38,236 nt of DNA from Nitrospinota bacterium (GTDB lineage Bacteria; Nitrospinota; Nitrospinia; Nitrospinales; JACRGP01). Below the pieces are notes generated by a model that ran no database searches, was not told where the DNA came from, and worked only from the letters and a program-made list of their open reading frames with translations. The first letter of the stretch is position 1; the number at the start of each line of letters is the position of its first letter. Shown piece after piece: positions 12,170-22,765 of this stretch. Location: contig JACQQK010000016.1 of the NCBI GenBank assembly GCA_016207065.1, positions 1 through 38,236 of the forward strand, read 5' to 3'. The translations under genes and the position numbers were made by a program.

Positions 12170-13831
12170 TCAGTCCAGGTCGTCGAACACGCCGGTCGCC
12201 AGGCTTTTGCGCGCGGTCCGGGCCTCCTGCTCGGCGCGCGCGATGCCTTGGTCGTAATCGTTTTCGTCGACAAACCGCAAAACCGCCTTCATGCCGGGAT
12301 ACCGCTTGAGGTACAACCTCGCCATGGTCTGGGCGATGCGCCGGTATTTGGGATGGCCGGCCTTCTGCGACCGCAACTCGGTCAAATGCCCCAACTCGCG
12401 GAGGTTCATGCCGAAGTTCCAGCGTATGAAGTGGTTGAACAGGGTGGCATACTGGGCCTCGCGCTCCAGGCCGTTGCGTTTCAAATCGTCATGGAGGTCC
12501 TCGGCCCGGCCGAAACATTCCTGGACGACCCGTCCCCTGCCGATTTCCTCCACCTCCTCGGGGATGGAATGACCCAGCAACGTGGCGAGGTCCTGTCTCT
12601 GCTGGGTCAACATGCGGTGCCGTTGCAGGTCGCGGTATTCGGCGAACCCCGCGACAATGTCGAAGTTGATTGGGTAACCGCATTCGAACGCCCGGCCTGG
12701 CCGGTCGCGCTTGCTTTTGCGGTCCCCCACGTAGGTCCGGAAGATCTCGTCGCGTTTCTCTTTCGGGAGCGCGCGCGCGATGCCCCGGATCTGTTGCGTG
12801 GAATGTTGCGCGTAAGGGAAGAGCATGCCGGCCAGAAGGTTAGTCTCGTAGTCCTCCTCCCGGTTTTCCAGGAGCACGACTTCCGCCGCCTTTTCCACTT
12901 TCACCCCCTTGAGGAGATCGCTGGAGAGTCGGGCCATGTTACGGTTGTTCTCGCACAGGTAGGGGTCCCTGGCCGCGCGTTTGATGAAGGTCGGGATCTG
13001 GCGGCCAAGAGTCTCCCGGATCGCCTCGCCCAGGGCGTTGGCCTCTTTTAAGTCCTGCGACAGCAGTTTGGAGATCAGGCCGGAAAAAAAACGCCCGTTC
13101 CCGACCAGGCCCATGTTGGCCTTGGTGGAGGCGGGCAGGATGCAACGGAGGACGTCGCAGGCGGCGCTCCGGACCGTGAAGTTGTAGGCCAGCCGATGGG
13201 CCTTGCGTTCGTCGTCGCCGCTCAGTTCGTCCAGGCCGGCCTTCACGACCGTCCCCCGCCGCTCCACCTCGATCTTGAACTCGTCCTGGGGGAGACGCTT
13301 GCGGAACAGGTCCTGCATCGGCTCCACCATCGCGGAGTAGGTTTCGAACAGGAAGTCCATGGTCTGGACGTATTTTTGTCCCAAGCCGGACTCCATGACG
13401 TTCGCGGGCCGGACATACCGCCACTCGCCGTCCTTCCTGGCGTCGTACAACACGTAGCGGGTGGATTCCTCGATGGGCGAGCCGCCGATCCGGCAATCCT
13501 CGACGATCTTGGTCATCAGGTTCGAGACGTCCTCGATGCACAAGGGGGCCACCGCCAGTTCGGCCACCGACTCGTCGCCGAACTTGTTCACCACGCGGTC
13601 GATCAGTTCCGTCCCCTTAACGTCGTTGGGGGAGCCGTCGGAGTTGAGGAACTCGCGGACGATGGTTTCCTTGATGCCGGTGGGGGCCCGGCTGTAGCGG
13701 GCGAGGGCGGCGCCGACGATTTCCGGGTTGAGTTCCCTTAGCGAGAACACCTTGGCCTCCACGTCGGTGACATAGGGGCGGAGGATTTCTTTTTCGCGTT
13801 CGGTCAGTTCATCGCTTCTCTTGGGCTTCAT
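12170..13831 (-). CDS. Double-length ThyX-like (FAD-dependent thymidylate synthase family) protein
   Basis: A 553-residue protein made of two ThyX-related halves. Canonical ThyX has about 220-250 residues with the RHRxxSxNExSxRY motif. Here the first half has FGDESVAELA (residues 84-93) where ThyX has GHxSxxEH, plus EESTRYVLYD (121-130). The second half has QRHRMLTQQRQDLATL with R404-H405-R406, followed by RELGHLTELRSQKAGHPKYR. Neither half carries the full motif; the RHR and the ESTRY signatures are split between the two. Canonical ThyX makes dTMP with FAD and methylene-tetrahydrofolate; whether this variant does so is not shown. Similar long forms exist in some bacteria. No signal peptide is seen. 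Confidence 0.85.
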   Translation of the reverse strand: MKPKRSDELTEREKEILRPYVTDVEAKVFSLRELNPEIVGAALARYSRAPTGIKETIVREFLNSDGSPNDVKGTELIDRVVNKFGDESVAELAVAPLCIEDVSNLMTKIVEDCRIGGSPIEESTRYVLYDARKDGEWRYVRPANVMESGLGQKYVQTMDFLFETYSAMVEPMQDLFRKRLPQDEFKIEVERRGTVVKAGLDELSGDDERKAHRLAYNFTVRSAACDVLRCILPASTKANMGLVGNGRFFSGLISKLLSQDLKEANALGEAIRETLGRQIPTFIKRAARDPYLCENNRNMARLSSDLLKGVKVEKAAEVVLLENREEDYETNLLAGMLFPYAQHSTQQIRGIARALPKEKRDEIFRTYVGDRKSKRDRPGRAFECGYPINFDIVAGFAEYRDLQRHRMLTQQRQDLATLLGHSIPEEVEEIGRGRVVQECFGRAEDLHDDLKRNGLEREAQYATLFNHFIRWNFGMNLRELGHLTELRSQKAGHPKYRRIAQTMARLYLKRYPGMKAVLRFVDENDYDQGIARAEQEARTARKSLATGVFDDLD

Positions 13832-14122
13832 TTGCGGGACCTTGGGGAAGGGGGCGCCGTGAAACGATCATGGCAAACCGGCGGGGGCTATTCAGGATTG
13901 ATATCCTGGGAAAAGGACGCCTGGCAACCGGATCATATCAAAATCGCCAATGTCAGACAAGCAGTTCGAAAATTCGGTAGTGTGTCAGTTTGATCACCTG
14001 CAACAACTCATGAAACCGCTTCTAGTCAATTGACCAGATTGTTTTTGTTGATTTCTTCTTTGTCGATGTAGTTTAATCACCCTAAGTTTGTTTTTCCTGC
14101 CTGAACATGGAGTGTGTGCTTA
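13832..14122. other. Intergenic region at the left edge of the R-M island
   Basis: This 291-bp gap separates the divergently transcribed thyX-like and methyltransferase genes. Composition changes from GC-rich to AT-rich around 13980, which I take as the left edge of the island. It holds a perfect 10-bp palindrome GTCAATTGAC (14025-14034), about 90 bp before the methyltransferase start, that could be an operator. A 44-codon GTG-started frame (13859-13993) is present but has no recognisable product. No clear direct repeat matching the right junction was found. Confidence 0.5.
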
Positions 14123-15334
14123 ATGGCTCGAAATAAATTATCAAAACCCACCGTGCCTAAGACCGCTAAAAAGTCCACAGTACAGCACAAACATAAAGAT
14201 AAGAAGCGGGAGAGAATTCCCCCTCTCGGCTTTGTCGCCTCAGCCACTAATAGGCTGTCGGGGAAGAAGGCATATCAAAACAAATCCTATCTCGATCAGA
14301 TGTCGAATTGGCCAGACAAGGCCGAGTACGCAAGTTTCGATGCGTCCACGGTTTCTTGTGTCCACGAGGAAATTGAGCCGAAAACCATTATAAAAACCAG
14401 CAAACAACAAAATGATAACAGTCCGGCGCAATTACCGTTGTTCGAAATGCCTGTGGAAAACCCGAAGTTTGGCGAAGCTGTAGATTTCCACCGACATTCC
14501 CGGAACTGGCCCGCCCGCCAAATCTCAGGCGATAAACAGAAGGCTTTCGAGTTCGCGAACACCGTGTTTCAAGGCGATTGTCTTGACATTATGGGCATTA
14601 TTCCAGACCATTCTATCAATATGGTTCTCTGTGATTTGCCCTATGGCACAACGCAGAACAAATGGGATTCCGTCATAAATCTTGATAAGTTATGGATTCA
14701 GTATAAAAGAATACTTAAACCTAATGGACTGGTTGTTCTCACGGCTCAGGGTGTCTTCACGGCCAAGCTCATCCTATCGAATGAAAGCTGGTTTAAATAT
14801 AAGATTGTTTGGGAAAAGTCGAAACCCACAAACTTCTTGAATGTAAAACACCAACCCCTCAGAAAGCATGAAGATATTTGTGTTTTCTACCGTAAACAAC
14901 CGCCTTACAATCCACAAATGCAACCCGGCGAGCCGTATGACAAGGGTGTCAGGAAAGACCAATTCTCTGGTAGCTACGGAGATTTTCAACCCTGCCGCGT
15001 CAAGAGTAATGGCGGACGATATCCTACAGATGTGCTTTATTTCAAAACCGCTGAAAGCGAGCCCGGCGGGACGGTTTGGCATCCCACACAGAAGCCTGTT
15101 GATTTAGGGCGGTATCTTATTAGAACTTTCACCAAGCCGGGCGATATTGTATTGGACAATGCTTGCGGTAGTGGAAGTTTTCTGGTTGCCGCGTATTTGG
15201 AGGGGAGACGCTTCTGCGGAATCGAGAAGAACAAGGAAGTCCATCTTTTCAAGAAAGAGAAGACAGATTACATCAAAGTCATAGTGGACCGTTTATGTGC
15301 ATATGGCGCAAAGCCCAATGTGGTACGCCGATGA
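14123..15334 (+). CDS. Site-specific DNA methyltransferase, beta-type (N4-cytosine or N6-adenine)
   Basis: A 403-residue DNA methylase of the N6_N4_Mtase family. The order is catalytic motif IV first (DLPYG, D171-G175), a recognition region, then the SAM-binding motif (DNACGSGSF, from D345) near the C-terminus: the beta arrangement. TVWHPTQKPVDLGRYLIRTF before motif I is typical. The first 130 residues are basic and low-complexity (KKSTVQHKHKDKKRER), an unusual N-terminal extension. Start ATG 14123 is preferred over GTG 14114; GGAG lies about 10 bp before it. The DNA is clearly AT-richer than the flanking housekeeping genes. The stop overlaps the next gene by ATGA, so the two form an R-M operon. 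Confidence 0.93.
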   Translation: MARNKLSKPTVPKTAKKSTVQHKHKDKKRERIPPLGFVASATNRLSGKKAYQNKSYLDQMSNWPDKAEYASFDASTVSCVHEEIEPKTIIKTSKQQNDNSPAQLPLFEMPVENPKFGEAVDFHRHSRNWPARQISGDKQKAFEFANTVFQGDCLDIMGIIPDHSINMVLCDLPYGTTQNKWDSVINLDKLWIQYKRILKPNGLVVLTAQGVFTAKLILSNESWFKYKIVWEKSKPTNFLNVKHQPLRKHEDICVFYRKQPPYNPQMQPGEPYDKGVRKDQFSGSYGDFQPCRVKSNGGRYPTDVLYFKTAESEPGGTVWHPTQKPVDLGRYLIRTFTKPGDIVLDNACGSGSFLVAAYLEGRRFCGIEKNKEVHLFKKEKTDYIKVIVDRLCAYGAKPNVVRR

Positions 15335-18300
15335 GCACTCTTTCTTATAACGAAAGAGCGTGGGCAATCGATCTGATTGGCCGCATTAACAGCTATTGCA
15401 AAAACAGAACTCGCCCCATAGTTAGAGCAGGAGGCGAAAGCGCCCTTAAGGTCCAGAAAAGCGATAAAAGCCTTTACCCGGACGTGTTGCTTTACGGTGA
15501 CGAGCAGGGCGTTCGTGTGAGACAAGGCTGGGAATTGAAGCTACCAGATACTCCGATCGACGATTCAGACCTTAAGAAAAATGCCATCGAGAAGGCCAAT
15601 CGGCTTCGCGTTAACAGCTTCCTTCTTTGGAATGTCAATGAAGCGATTCTATACGCGCGCGAACGGGATGGCGAGGATTTTTCCATCATTAAAAAATGGG
15701 GGCCTCTAGGTATTCGCGCTCGATCGGGCGTAAAGTCCATGGAAAGCAAATGGACTAGTCTTCTTGAGGAAATCATCGATACGCTGAATGACTTTTTCGA
15801 GAAGGGACGCCTCAAATCTTCTGTGCCGCAAGACATTTTAGACGATGGTTTTATTGCCGGATTTATCAACGAATATTGGGGCGTGGCGGCTACGGCCATT
15901 CAGAAGGCCGGACAAAAGTCGGGAACTGTAGACGCATCTATCCTGGATTGGTGGCGCCAGAACGCAGGAGAGTACGGTAAAAAGCTTGGTGAAGGGGTCG
16001 ATTTTCAGATTTTCGCGAAAGTGGCATTGACCAACTGGCTCAACCGATTTCTCTTCTGCCACTATCTCAAGAAGTTCCACACAGCCGCTCGCAAGGTTGA
16101 GAGGATCGACCGGCAACGCTCGATTGAGGAGGCAACCGAGATTTTTAATGAGATCTCAGACAAATGCGATTTCATGCAGGTCTTCGAGCCTGAGATTGCC
16201 GCCGATAGGATCGGCAGAGAAGCATGGATTGGCCTATGTCAGCTTAATCGCTTCCTGACCGAGCTTAAGCTCGACGAGCTCCCGCAGGAAGCCTTACGCA
16301 AGGTCATGGAAAGCGCTCTAGATAGCGCGAGACGAAAAGTGGCCGGGCAATATGCCACGCCCATGGAACTCGCAAGGTTGCTGGTCAACCTTGCGATCGA
16401 GGATCGGGAAGATCATGCGATTGATCCCTGTTGCGGTACTGGAACGATCGCCCGCGCCGCCTATGAGTTGAAAACCAGTCGCGGCGGTATGAACAAAGCA
16501 CAAGCCCTTTCTACTGTGTGGGCCTCGGATAGGTTTCAATTTCCCCTCCAGCTCGGCGCCATTGCCCTGGCCGACCCCGAAGCGATGGGTGAAATTATTC
16601 GGATATTCAAACAGGATGTGTTTGCTATTCATCCGGGGCAACAGATTTCCTTCACCGACCCGAACACAGGAAAGAAGATCGCCACACAACTTCCACGCAT
16701 GGGTAGCATCGTTTCAAATCTTCCATTCGTCCGGTTTGAAGATGTGAAAACCGTAAACAAAGATGTCGCGGCAAAGTTGAAGACCGTAACAGATGGGGAA
16801 AGCATATCAGGGAAATCAGACTTCTTTGCGTATATTGTCTTGTATCTAAAAACGCTCCTAAAAGATCGAGGTCGAATAGGCATCATTGTCTCAAATGCTT
16901 GGCTCAGTACGGATTGGGGAGTAGGCCTCAGGAAGGCGATGGAAAAGCATTTCCACATTCGTATCGTAGTATCTTCCGGGGCCGGTAGATGGTTTGATCA
17001 AACCAAAGTCGTTACGAACATCGTAGTTCTTGAAAAAAAGGACGGATCAGAGCAACCCGGCGATGTAAAATTCGTTACAACTTTGAAACCTATCGCCGAA
17101 TGGGATCCACCGAAAACAAATGAAATGACAGCAACAATTATATCCGCGCCGTCGGCGGAAACTACGGATACCGTGCAAGTGAATGTTTATTCCTCGAACG
17201 AACGCGCTTTGATCGAGAAGATATGCGTGGGATGGTCTTGTTTCTTCACTGATGTCCATTGGGTAAAACAGTTTCAGTCCAAATTGATCAAGGTTTCAAG
17301 CCTATTTGATATCGGGCGCGGCGAACGGCGAGGCTGGGACGATATGTTTTATCCGGCCAAGGGACATGGGATAGAGCGCGACTATATCCGTCCCGTGTTG
17401 AAAAACACAAGAAGCGTGCAGGGCTACATTGCCGAGCCAGACGCCAAGGCTTTCTGTTGTTCCGAAGATATAAAGGCGCTAAAAACCAAAGGTCATAAAG
17501 GAGCCATAGCTTGGATCGAGCGATTTAAAAACCTGCCAAACGAAAAAGGCGAACCCTTGCCCAGCGCATTGGCGCGGGCAAATCACCAATGGTACGAAAT
17601 GAAACCAGACACGTTGGCTGATTTCGTGATGGGGCTGAATCCAGAAGATCGCCTATTTGTCGCTAAAATGAAGAATCGCGGCTTTGTGAATCAGCGGTTA
17701 ATTCGCTTCACTAAAAAAGACCATCAACTTAACATGCTACTGGTTCACGCGCTTCTGAACTCTACCTTCGGCCTGTTCATGATAGAAGCCGCTGGCTTCG
17801 GTCGAGGACTCGGGGCATTGGATATTCAACCCTCCAAACTCAAGAAGGGATTCCATATGCTCGACCCATCACAACTAAATGGGAAATCCCGCGATCGGAT
17901 CATCGAAACTTTCGAGGCTGTGAAGAAAAGGAACGTCTGGCCGCTTGCCCAAGAACTTGAGCAATTAGACCGGCTAAAGCTGGACACGGAAATTCTAACG
18001 GCTTACGGGATGGAAAAACACGTTGCTAGCATCAGAGAATCCTTGTCGGCGCTTTATCGCATTAGAAAATCAGTTAAAACCTCACATCCGCCCCTTTCAC
18101 GCCGCATGTCCAATCAACTCGAACTACGTTCCAATATTTCCTGTAAGACTCCCTTGATCGAAATCCAACCCGCAACTCGAACTCGCGCGACGGTCGAGGC
18201 GCCGCCGTCGAAGAGCTACACCAACCGCGCCCTGATTATCGCCGGGCTGGCGGACGGCGAAAGCCGGCTGGACCACCCGCTGTTCAGCGACGACACCCGC

Positions 18301-19416
18301 TACATGCGGGAGGCGATCGTCCGTTACGGCGTCCCGGTCAAGCGGGAGGCGGACGCATTGATCGTTTCCGGGAAAGGCGGCGTTTTACAGGCGCCGCAAG
18401 AAGAGATTTATGTCGGCAACGCCGGGACGGCCATGCGGTTCCTGGCCACGTTCGCGGCCCTGGCGCCGGGGACCAGCCGCCTGACGGGCGACGAGCGCAT
18501 GCGCGAACGCCCCATCGAGGACCTGCTGGCCGGTCTGCGCGCCATGGGCGTGCCCGCCGAATCGGTCTTGAACAACCAATGCCCGCCGCTGGTCGTCCAA
18601 GGCGGAAACGTCCCCGGCGGCGAAATCCGCCTGGCCGCCGACAAGAGCAGTCAATACCTGACTTCTCTCCTGCTCTCCGCCCCGTATTTTCAAAAAGATT
18701 CCGTCATCCGCGTCGCCGGGGAGCTGACCTCTAAATCCTACGTGGACATCACGCTGGACATCATGAAGACCTTCGGGGTCCGTGTGGAAAATGAGGGATA
18801 TTCCGTTTTCCGGGTATCGGCCGGGCAGAAGTACGCGCCCCGGGAGTACGCCATCGAGGGCGACGCGTCCAGCGCGTCGTATTTCTTCGCGTCCGCCGCG
18901 GTCTCCGGCGGCGAAGTGACGGTGACCCGCCTCAACCCGGACAGCGTGCAGGGCGACATGCGGTTTCTGGACGCCCTCGAGCAAATGGGGTGCCGGGTGG
19001 AAAAATCCTCCGGAAAAATCGCGGTCAAGGGAAATCCTTTGCGGGGGATTTCCATCAATATGAATACCATGCCGGACGTCGTCCAGACCCTGGCGGTCGT
19101 GGCGTTGTTCGCGGACGGCCCGACCGCCGTCGCGGGGATCGGCAATTTGCGGATCAAGGAGACCGACCGGATCGCCGCCCTGGAGCGCGAATTGACGCGG
19201 CTGGGCGCGCGGGTCGAATCCGGGCCCGATTACCTGACGGTCCATCCCGCCGCCCGTTACAACCCGGCGGAGATCGAAACGTACAACGACCACCGCATGG
19301 CCATGAGTTTCGCGGTCGCCGGGTTGAAGATTCCCGGCGTCAAAATCAAAAACCCCGAGTGCGTGAGCAAGTCGTTTCCCGACTTTTTCGAACGGTTTAA
19401 AAAATTACATGGATGA
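15331..19416 (+). CDS. Restriction-methylase protein fused in frame to EPSP synthase
   Basis: One uninterrupted frame of 1361 codons. Residues 1-about 130 form a PD-(D/E)XK nuclease-like domain: E36 in GGESA, P50-D51 in LYPDVLLYG, and E68-L-K70 in GWELKLP. Residues about 340-580 form an N6-adenine methylase: [12 protein letters not shown], the SAM site [10 protein letters not shown] from D365, and catalytic SNLPF at 462-466, where L replaces the first P of the usual NPP[YF]. Residues about 620-920 resemble a target-recognition/C-terminal region of type IIG enzymes ([25 protein letters not shown]). From about residue 942 the frame becomes AroA. The methylase part is AT-rich like the preceding gene; the AroA part returns to local GC-rich composition. 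The ATG at 15331 forms an ATGA overlap with the upstream methyltransferase. Whether a single fused protein is made or aroA restarts internally is unknown. Confidence 0.85.
18154..19416 (+). CDS. aroA: 3-phosphoshikimate 1-carboxyvinyltransferase (EPSP synthase) portion
   Basis: The shikimate-pathway enzyme that joins PEP to shikimate-3-phosphate. All signature sites are present: [71 protein letters not shown] and [14 protein letters not shown]. The domain begins at the TTG at 18154 (LIEIQPAT), exactly where a normal AroA would start with M-x-IxIxPA, giving 420 residues. The upstream in-frame ATG at 18106 ([10 protein letters not shown]) is an alternative; neither has an evident ribosome site. 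The frame upstream is open into the methylase, so this may instead be a C-terminal domain. The next gene starts 8 bp inside its end. An essential function is probably preserved. Confidence 0.75.
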
Positions 19417-21688
19417 ACATCGCTTTACCAACCTCCTGGTCCACGAAAAAAGCCCCTATCTCCTCCAACATGCCCACAACCCCGTCGACTGGCGCCCCTG
19501 GGGCGAGGAAGCGTTTAAAATCGCCAGGGAACTGAACAAGCCTTTGCTGGTGAGCATCGGCTATGCGACGTGCCACTGGTGCCACGTCATGGAACGGGAA
19601 TCGTTCGAGGACCCGCAACTGGCGGAACTGCTCAACGCCGGATTTGTCTGTATCAAGGTGGACCGCGAGGAACGCCCCGACGTGGACAGCGTCTACATGC
19701 AGGCGTTGCAATCCATGGGCCAGCAGGGCGGCTGGCCGCTGAACGTTTTCGTGACCCCGGAAGGCCTGCCGTTTTACGGCGGCACTTATTTCCCTCCCCA
19801 GCCCCGGTTCCACCTGCCGTCCTTCGCCAACGTGCTGGAGTTCCTGAGCGGATTATGGAAAAACGACCCCGGCAAGATCCAGCGTCAAAGCCAGGCCATC
19901 GTCGCCCACCTCAAGCAATCGGCGGTCAGAACGGAAACCGGGGCGTTGGACACCTTGGATTTCGAGGGCGAGGACCGCGCCGTAAAGCTCTACGAAAGCC
20001 ATTACGACACCTTGAACCACGGTTTCCGCTTTCAGCCCCAGAACAAGTTTCCGCCGTCCATGGGGTTGGGCCTGCTCCTGCGCCATTACCGGCGGACGGG
20101 TCACAAACCCAGCCTGGACATGGCCGTCAACACGCTCCGGGCCATGAAAAACGGCGGCATCTACGACCAGATCGGCGGCGGCCTGTCGCGCTACAGCACG
20201 GACTACCGCTGGCTCGTCCCGCATTTCGAAAAAATGCTTTACGACAACGCCCTGTTCGTGACCGCGCTCGTCGAAGCGTGCCAGGCCGGGGGCGCCCCGG
20301 AGTTCGCGGACTTCGCCAACGACGTCCTGGCGTACATCGACCGCGACATGACCTCCCCCGACGGGGCGTTTTACAGCGCCGAGGACGCCGACAGCGAAGG
20401 GGTGGAGGGGAAATTCTACGTCTGGACGCAGGAGGAAATCGAAAAGGTTCTGGGCCGCCAGACGGCCAGCGTGACGCTGGACCCAAACGGCTCGATTCGG
20501 ATGGCGAACGAAGATCGTCGAGGGCAATCCGAGCCCGGCCATCCCGCTCCGGGGCGTTCCCCGGCCAGCGTGACGCTGGACCCAAATGGCTCGATTCGGA
20601 TGGCGAACGAAGATCGTCGAGGGCAATCCGAGCCCGGCCATCCCGCTCCGGGGCGTTCCCCGGCCAGCGTGGCGGGTCCCTACTACAACGTCACGCCGCG
20701 CGGGAACTTCGAGCATAAGAACATCCTACACGTCACCCGCGCGCCCGCGGAACTGGCGAAGGAACTCGGCCTGCCGGAGGCGGCGGTCGTCGAGGAACTC
20801 GGCAAGGCCCGTTCCCTCCTCCTGGAAGAGCGGAGCAAACGCATACGGCCGTTGCTGGACGACAAGGTCCTCGTCTCCTGGAACGGACTGATGATCTCCG
20901 CGATGGCCCGGGCCGGGCGCGTCCTCGACGACCCGGAGCGGATACGCCGCGCGGAGCGGGCGGCGGACTTCATCCTGACCCGCATGCGCGCCCCGGACGG
21001 CGGTCTGTTCCGCCGGTTCCGGCAGGGCGACGCCCGCCATAACGGCTATCTTTTCGACTACACGTCCCTGGCGGTAGCCTGCCTGGAACTCTATGAAGCG
21101 ACTTACAAGCCCACATACGTCAAGCTCGCCGCCGAACTGATGCGGTTGACGGACGAGAAATTCGCGTCCGGCGACGGCGCGTACCATGAGACCCCGGCGG
21201 ACGGGGAAAACCTGATTGTTCGGCAGATTTCCGGATACGACGGCGTCGAGCCCTCCGGCAACAGCAACGCCGCGTTGGCCCTCCTCAAGCTGTCCGCGTA
21301 CCTGGGCGACCCGGCCTACGAACGCAAAGCGGAAAAAATCTTCCTCGTCTTCCACGAGGACCTGATGGATTACGGGCTCAACTCCTCCTTCATGATGCAG
21401 GCCCTGCACCTCTACCTCGGCGGGCTGAAGGAAGTGGCCGCGGTGGGACGGCGCGACGACCCGTCCACCCAGGCCATGCTGAAGACCGTCCGCCAGGGAT
21501 TCTTCCCCAACGCCGTCTTCGCCTTCGCCTACGAGGACGAGGCGGAGACCGCCGCCCGCGACGTCCCCCTGCTCGCCAACCGCAAAACCATCGACGGCAA
21601 GGCTGCGGCCTACGTATGCCGGCGCGGCGCCTGCCTGCCGCCCACGACCTCCCCGGACGAACTGGTCAGCCTGCTGGGCTACGAATAA
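19409..21688 (+). CDS. Thioredoxin-domain protein, SPATA20/YyaL (DUF255) type, with in-frame tandem repeat insertion
   Basis: A 759-residue member of the DUF255 family: an N-terminal thioredoxin-like domain followed by an (alpha/alpha)6-barrel glycosidase-like domain. The redox site is C55-H-W-C58-H in [17 protein letters not shown], then [14 protein letters not shown] and [11 protein letters not shown]. The barrel has PKFPPS-like [15 protein letters not shown] and [21 protein letters not shown]. Normally a conserved stretch of the type EEIxxVLG...YYxVTxxGNFExKNIL is continuous; here about 66 residues (352-418), two copies of a 33-residue unit beginning [20 protein letters not shown], are inserted in the middle of it. 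The enzyme activity of the family is not established. Removing the insertion gives the usual family length of about 690. The start overlaps aroA by 8 bp. Confidence 0.93.
20464..20670 (+). repeat. Element A tandem pair within the yyaL-type gene
   Basis: Two direct copies of a 99-bp unit (starts at 20464 and 20563), with a third partial terminus, GGCCAGCGT, at 20662. The copies differ at only one base seen by eye (AAC/AAT, silent). Each starts with the palindrome CCAGCGTGACGCTGG, and the shared terminal motif between copies suggests tandem duplication by recombination between terminal palindromes. The period is a multiple of three and has no stop in the frame used. Confidence 0.95.
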
Positions 21689-21772
21689 TCCGCCGTTTGA
21701 TTTCCCCAACCGCTCCGGGTTGTGGTACTATTTTTATTCTATTTTCAACCGCGGATGCGGGCAATCAACGCT

Positions 21773-22765
21773 ATGCGTAAAGAACTCATCGACTCCATCA
21801 TCGAAACGGCCATGGGCGGGGAAGGCATCGACCGCGAGCAGGCCCTGCTGGTCGGGACCCTGGACCGCGAGGAACTCCTGTACCTGTTCCAGGGCACGGA
21901 CCGGATCCGCGACAAGTTCAAGGGCCCGGACGTCAAGATTTGCTCCATCGTCAACGCCAAATCGGGGAAATGTCCCGAGGATTGCGGGTTCTGCGCGCAA
22001 TCGTCCAGGTTCAAGACCGATTCGCCGGAATACGGGCTCCTGGACGTCGATAAAATCGTGGCCGCGGCGAAAGAGGCGGAGGCTTTCGGCTCCAACGAGT
22101 TTTCCATCGTCACGTCGGGCACGGCGGTGGACGACCGGAAGGAACTGGACGTTCTCAAGGAGGCCATCCGGCGGATCAAGGCGGAAACCAGCCTGGAGGT
22201 TTGCTGTTCCCTGGGCCTGATGAGCCTGGAAAACCTGAAAGAGTTGAAAGCCGCTGGACTGGACCGCTTCCACCACAACCTGGAAACCGCCGCCAGCCAT
22301 TTCGACAAAATCGTGACCACCCACTCCTACCGCGACGAAATGCAGGCGGTCAGGAACGCCGGCGAGGCGGGACTCAAGGTCTGCGTCGGCGGCATCTTCG
22401 GGATGGGCGAAACCTACGCGCAGAGGGTGGAACTGGCCTTCGACATCCGCGACATGAAAACCGATTCGTTCCCCATCAACTTCCTGAAACCGCTCCCCGG
22501 CACGGCCTTGGAACATCTGGACTACCTCGATTACCACGAGGCCCTGCGGACGATCTCGCTTCTCCGCCTCGTCCTGCCCGCCATCGACCTGTTCGTATGC
22601 GGGGGACGGGAGGAAATCCTGGGCCAGGGCCAGGACCTGCTCTTCGCGGCGGGCGCCAACGGCATCCTCGGCGGCAATTACCTGACCACCAAAGGCCAGG
22701 ACCCCAAAAAAGACATCGAAATGATTGAAAACCTCGGCCTCCGGCCCGTCTTCCAATCCGCCTGA
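21773..22765 (+). CDS. bioB: Biotin synthase
   Basis: Radical SAM enzyme that inserts sulfur into dethiobiotin. The [4Fe-4S]-SAM motif is C67-PED-C71-GF-C74, followed by AQSSRFKTDSPEYGLL. Residues for the second [2Fe-2S] cluster and substrate are in VCCSLGLMS, HHNLETAASHF, GGIFGMGET and the C-terminal FLKPLPGTALE, FVCGGREEILG and GANGILGGNYLTT. Start ATG 21773 gives 330 residues, typical length; in-frame starts at 21722 and 21755 would add unconserved residues. An AT-rich stretch just upstream (21727-21752) could contain the promoter. It is followed by an element A copy that begins directly at its stop codon. No other bio genes are visible. Confidence 0.95.
   Translation: MRKELIDSIIETAMGGEGIDREQALLVGTLDREELLYLFQGTDRIRDKFKGPDVKICSIVNAKSGKCPEDCGFCAQSSRFKTDSPEYGLLDVDKIVAAAKEAEAFGSNEFSIVTSGTAVDDRKELDVLKEAIRRIKAETSLEVCCSLGLMSLENLKELKAAGLDRFHHNLETAASHFDKIVTTHSYRDEMQAVRNAGEAGLKVCVGGIFGMGETYAQRVELAFDIRDMKTDSFPINFLKPLPGTALEHLDYLDYHEALRTISLLRLVLPAIDLFVCGGREEILGQGQDLLFAAGANGILGGNYLTTKGQDPKKDIEMIENLGLRPVFQSA

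Follow-up and report, generated by a model that had tools for sequence, protein, structure and literature searches.

A complete Type IIG restriction-methylation enzyme and a full-length AroA (EPSP synthase) are encoded by one uninterrupted reading frame in the window, that is, the whole stretch of 38,236 nucleotides of Nitrospinota DNA analysed here. At the level of sequence this restriction enzyme-AroA fusion is confirmed, the weight being carried by the completeness of the IIG enzyme, the lack of a stop codon at the join and the conservation in two species. The frame runs from ATG 15331 (or 15295) to the stop codon at 19414-19416 and specifies 1361 aa. The preliminary description had claimed that the restriction-modification (R-M) frame enters EPSP synthase without a stop and passes from an AT-rich foreign part into a GC-rich native part. 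Both claims hold: 15331-19416 is open with the profiles PDLC03606 and TIGR01356 each matched in full length, and the GC content is 44-51% across the island at 14-18 kb and 60-66% in the native part beyond.

The IIG part (15331-18078, plus strand) is supported by its match to PDLC03606 (PADLOC, Type IIG REase-MTase; 15337-18078, residues 4-916 against profile positions 4-932 of 935, E = 2.7e-277), by alignment with homologues and by a dN/dS of about 0.3. It contains the nuclease motif PD..GWELK and the methylase motifs DPCCGTGT and SNLPF; PD..GWELK and SNLPF are kept in all IIG homologues aligned, and DPCCG[T/S]GT in the nearest ones. By its profile match and motifs it is a Type IIG enzyme, with a PD-(D/E)xK nuclease and a gamma-type N6-methylase in one chain and with cleavage and methylation as predicted activities. 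A linker of 26 codons follows (18079-18156, plus strand; 6 codons in the sister species described below), which includes an ATG at 18106 without a Shine-Dalgarno sequence, and AroA begins with IEIQPAT directly after it. The AroA domain (18157-19416, plus strand; dN/dS 0.29) is full length, as the TIGR01356 aroA equivalog covers residues 954-1360 (E = 4.4e-138; 460.6 bits against a curated cut-off of 287) and residues 5-422 of Escherichia coli EPSP synthase align with residues 944-1358 of the fusion. The expected product is a IIG-AroA protein of ~150 kDa. A predicted structure of residues 640-1361 (three sequences) was discarded at a mean pLDDT of 33.

The IIG part extends to its natural C-terminus (...LYRIRKSVK), recognition region included, and can be aligned over its whole length with the Poribacteria and plasmid homologues. 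The nearest homologue outside the genus, from Poribacteria, is 51% identical and ends with a stop directly after ...LYNIRKSVGIRS (...SLLELYNIRKSVGIRS-stop); its locus (L023) has the same gene order, with a companion methyltransferase (MTase) that is 72% identical. The plasmid homologues (Rhizorhabdus, Lactobacillus and others) are separate genes that end at the same point and have the MTase upstream. These alignments, together with the conserved aroA start described below, place the fusion join at the natural ends of both proteins. No other near-complete member of the IIG family besides the starting genomes was found among 77 genomes of the phylum or among 85 genomes from the phylum to which the Poribacteria genome belongs, which left no further candidates for a fusion there, and no IIG relative was found in the viral contigs searched.

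The island begins with the companion of the IIG enzyme, a DNA methyltransferase (N6_N4_Mtase; 14123-15334, plus strand; PF01555, E = 3.4e-28; PADLOC MTase_II, E = 2.5e-61), whose stop overlaps the IIG start (ATGA). Its start, ATG 14123, is preceded by a Shine-Dalgarno sequence GGAG (dG -9.3) that lies in the intergenic region at 13832-14122, the presumed place of the island promoter, which is conserved in the sister species. On the left stands a native neighbour on the minus strand, a Thy1/ThyX-domain protein (12170-13831; Pfam Thy1; synteny in 48 loci). On the right, the next native gene encodes a DUF255/Thioredox_DsbH protein (19409-21688, plus strand) and overlaps the end of aroA (ATGGATGA); it is followed by bioB (21722-22765), and both genes also lie 3' of aroA in relatives. 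No convincing repeats were found at the island ends. The thyX-like gene has also been deprived of its upstream neighbours, and before it, on the minus strand, lies a promoter-like sequence that includes a TG (TTGTCT-17-TATGAT, 13960-13932).

The same island and the same fusion, at ~94% identity, are found in a second Nitrospinota metagenome-assembled genome (MAG) of JACRGP01 (the sister species, G001; the window genome is G000). Both carriers are related groundwater bacteria, and both genomes are incomplete drafts (71-80% completeness, the window genome 80%). The linker of the sister species is 60 nt shorter and retains the frame. The fusion is thus no accident of one assembly, since it recurs with another linker length and the frame kept. 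In the sister species one extra T right after the native TTG start of aroA puts this codon out of frame, and no in-frame ATG, GTG or TTG occurs from the IIG C-terminus to AroA; AroA should therefore be readable only through the IIG frame, barring a non-standard start. The fusion in this genome rests on one base: minus the extra T, the IIG gene would be closed by a TGA that overlaps the TTG (TTGA), making a coupled pair and not a fused one, and for this reason read support for the T matters.

The comparison of the locus with island-free relatives bears out the preliminary description in part and enlarges it, as the island has also replaced three genes. Elsewhere in the order, 46 of 48 loci have aroA in its own unit, aroA-dsbH-bioB, divergent from minus-strand genes for a small protein (~100 aa), a DUF4149 protein and usually an FGE-sulfatase-like protein (FGE), followed by the thyX-like gene; three of the counted contigs break off before thyX or FGE is reached. 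From the locus in the window genome and the sister species, the three genes nearest aroA (small protein, DUF4149 and FGE) are missing and the MTase-IIG island is in their place. The DUF4149 gene was sought elsewhere in both MAGs and not found, and the FGE-type relatives elsewhere in them are distant only (best 50%). An extended -10 element (pattern TGnTA[TA][AT]nT, searched within 120 nt of aroA) lies upstream of aroA in 42 of 47 relatives, mostly at -40 to -80, against 2.4 expected from mononucleotide shuffling. The pattern occurs neither in the 2.8-kb IIG gene of the window nor in the part of the sister IIG gene on contig C3; it is also missing from the island's own upstream region, so its lack does not prove the lack of a promoter. 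Most likely, the native aroA promoter has been displaced by the island. The preliminary description had both the native promoter and the native start replaced: the promoter half is supported, and the start half fails for the window, where the TTG is in frame and is displaced only in the sister species. Across the order, a conserved extended -10 promoter of the TGTGGTATATT / TATGCTATAGT type is seen together with a TTG start of aroA.

The position of the native start was correctly anticipated. A TTG, GTG or ATG occupies exactly the codon of TTG 18154 (18154-18156, plus strand), just before a conserved AT[C/T/A]GAAAT, in 44 of 47 relatives, which identifies TTG 18154 as the correct native start. 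Its Shine-Dalgarno sequence is weak (dG -0.4). Both this codon and ATG 18106 are in frame with aroA in the window genome, where separate synthesis of AroA from one or the other is possible. Another candidate internal start is the in-frame ATG at 17857-17859 (plus strand; Shine-Dalgarno dG -5.4), from which AroA with an N-terminal tail of roughly 100 residues might be made in the window. The same codon in the sister species (L034:1441, in the IIG C-terminus) has the Shine-Dalgarno sequence GGAGGG with a dG of -11.7; a value of -11 is reached by none of the 151 internal ATGs of the window genes, with the qualification that this signal was noticed post hoc.

Comparison of the two species shows purifying selection on IIG and AroA, and both halves of the fusion look functional. 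When both parts of the IIG gene are pooled, 51 synonymous and 60 non-synonymous changes separate the species (Fisher p = 2e-8). The dN/dS is 0.29 for the IIG C-part, 0.29 for aroA and 0.14 for the MTase; for the less diverged 5' N-part of IIG alone it is 0.52 (p = 0.2), so that constraint is not significant there. The openness of the linker alone is weak evidence and was rejected as a sign of selection, because an open 26-codon frame is found upstream of aroA in 16 of 47 relatives. The retention of the frame through two or three indels, which by estimate would happen by chance in about one case in nine, is modest evidence. The linker itself is hypervariable and, save for its frame, free to vary.

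The region directly upstream of aroA holds other addiction-type modules in two relatives. In G002, a member of the same family, an independent BglII-type R-M system (restriction endonuclease PF09195 and MT-A70 methyltransferase; L025, G002:C46, 3637-7371) and an IS1-like transposase lie between the divergent genes and aroA; the R-M system is on the aroA strand, 69 nt before aroA, and the native extended -10 element is gone. In G044 (L068, G044:C404), a ParDE-type toxin-antitoxin pair occupies -641 to -57 of aroA on the same strand; the TATATT hexamer remains and its TG is lost. All three module-bearing lineages have lost the extended -10 element, compared with 3 among the 44 other loci (p = 0.001 by a post hoc Fisher test on small numbers).

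The best explanation as a whole, which we consider probable, combines island insertion and gene replacement, loss of a stop, synthesis of AroA at the C-terminal end of the IIG chain and island-dependent aroA expression. In the ancestor of the genus, an AT-rich MTase-IIG island would have entered the stretch between the thyX-like gene and aroA, removing the three native genes and the aroA promoter, and the IIG stop would have been lost, so that the frame continued into aroA. A single transcript from the island's upstream region would then carry the MTase, IIG-AroA and, via overlaps, the native genes that follow. AroA would be synthesized as the last domain of the ~150-kDa IIG protein, and initiation within the IIG mRNA might add further AroA. 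Without the island transcript there would be no aroA expression, and in the sister species an intact IIG reading frame would be needed too. Deletion of the R-M system and, in the sister species, also most upstream frameshift or nonsense mutations would then cost AroA, which would stabilize the R-M system. Of all this, the sequences themselves show the insertion with gene replacement, the loss of the native promoter motif, the fusion in two species, the displaced start in one of them and the purifying selection on both parts; production of the fusion protein, reliance on island transcription and the stabilizing effect are inferred. The aroA gene is the only copy found in the window genome (80% complete), and aroB and aroC are present, so AroA should be needed. 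A cell whose defence gene is damaged would probably lose an essential enzyme with it, and addiction by entanglement is a reasonable hypothesis for the arrangement. The stronger claim is that of a natural entanglement in which the R-M system is hard to lose because it supplies the promoter and the N-terminal half of an essential enzyme, the frame has been kept by selection through indels and the aroA upstream region is a repeated landing place of addiction-type modules in the order; taken together, this seems unlikely.

An assembly error that created the fusion through an overlooked base or an incorrect join is highly improbable. It could draw on the draft state of the MAGs, on the split of the sister IIG gene over two contigs that have exactly 141 nt in common (like a k-mer overlap) and on the one-base dependence there. 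However, two separate assemblies with different linkers agree, and the junction lies inside contigs with native synteny on both flanks. A more serious alternative, although a doubtful one, is translational coupling, in which ribosomes passing through IIG would initiate AroA separately, at TTG 18154 or at an internal ATG, and the covalent fusion would be a minor product. The status of TTG 18154 as the native start of the family agrees with such coupling, as do the strong Shine-Dalgarno sequence at the internal ATG of the sister species, the weaker one at the same ATG (17857) in the window and the TTGA stop/start overlap that one base fewer would create in the sister species. The near absence of a Shine-Dalgarno sequence at TTG 18154, and its displacement from the frame in the sister species, argue against it; moreover, without a stop codon each ribosome that completes IIG yields the fusion.

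A neutral origin, with the island landing beside aroA, the IIG stop lost by chance and no selection for the linkage, has a chance only somewhat below even. It concerns the persistence of the fusion and not its existence, and it overlaps with the anatomy of the preferred explanation. The loss of a stop in the right frame would suffice, the open 26-codon frame is seen in 16 of 47 relatives, and the hypervariable linker fits as well. The fusion would be tolerated because AroA accepts N-terminal partners, as the AROM enzyme shows. Against neutrality, the frame has survived ~60 nt of insertions or deletions after the two species separated (dS ~0.1) and IIG has stayed under purifying selection, a constraint that may also reflect phage defence. 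Returning to the preferred explanation of island insertion and island-dependent AroA, its parts can be compared with known systems.

Inteins with homing endonucleases are selfish, nuclease-bearing elements that reside inside the reading frame of a gene the cell needs, where imprecise loss is harmful; here, in contrast, nuclease and host protein follow one another in the chain, and no splicing element is found among the domain matches. Natural fusions of restriction endonucleases with methylases are also known. In NsoJS138I, a natural fusion of a C protein and a restriction endonuclease, both activities have been shown in one chain (PMC3850674); both cases are natural in-frame fusions of a restriction endonuclease, but NsoJS138I has the regulator of its own R-M system as partner, and the fusion here a host biosynthetic enzyme. 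Eco57I-like Type IIG/IIC enzymes combine endonuclease and methylase in one chain, with C-terminal recognition and one companion MTase (PMC4081073). The R-M part here is ordinary and has the same organization, with a separate MTase just upstream and all motifs present; however, the known enzymes end at the recognition region, whereas the chain here continues into EPSP synthase. AroA also stands behind an N-terminal partner in TyrA-AroA (NCBIfam PRK14806) and in the pentafunctional AROM enzyme, a precedent of solved structure (6hqv) in which such an AroA is known to work; in these fusions AroA is joined to other enzymes that make aromatic amino acids and not to a foreign defence enzyme. In function, the nearest parallel comes from synthetic biology. 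The entanglement of the toxin gene relE with ilvA stabilized toxin production for >130 generations (PMC10359631), and this system and other gene overlaps (PMC8528312) follow the same logic, in that mutations inactivating a costly or toxic gene also hit a needed biosynthetic gene; they were engineered via overlapping frames, whereas the arrangement here is natural, end to end and in one frame. The literature searched yielded no account of an R-M/aroA fusion, nor of a restriction enzyme joined in one chain to a housekeeping enzyme.

Part of the persistence of R-M systems is attributed to the killing of cells that have lost them, yet point mutations easily inactivate these systems. If the proposed dependence is true, being fused to an essential enzyme would give R-M systems a second way to persist, effective against inactivating mutations and not only against loss, and would be a natural counterpart of synthetic-biology designs that stabilize toxic genes.

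Divergence along the IIG gene is uneven: dS is about 0.3 at 17380-17619 of the window (IIG residues about 684-763), against 0.02-0.03 in some other blocks, and recombination of the recognition region is a possible cause.
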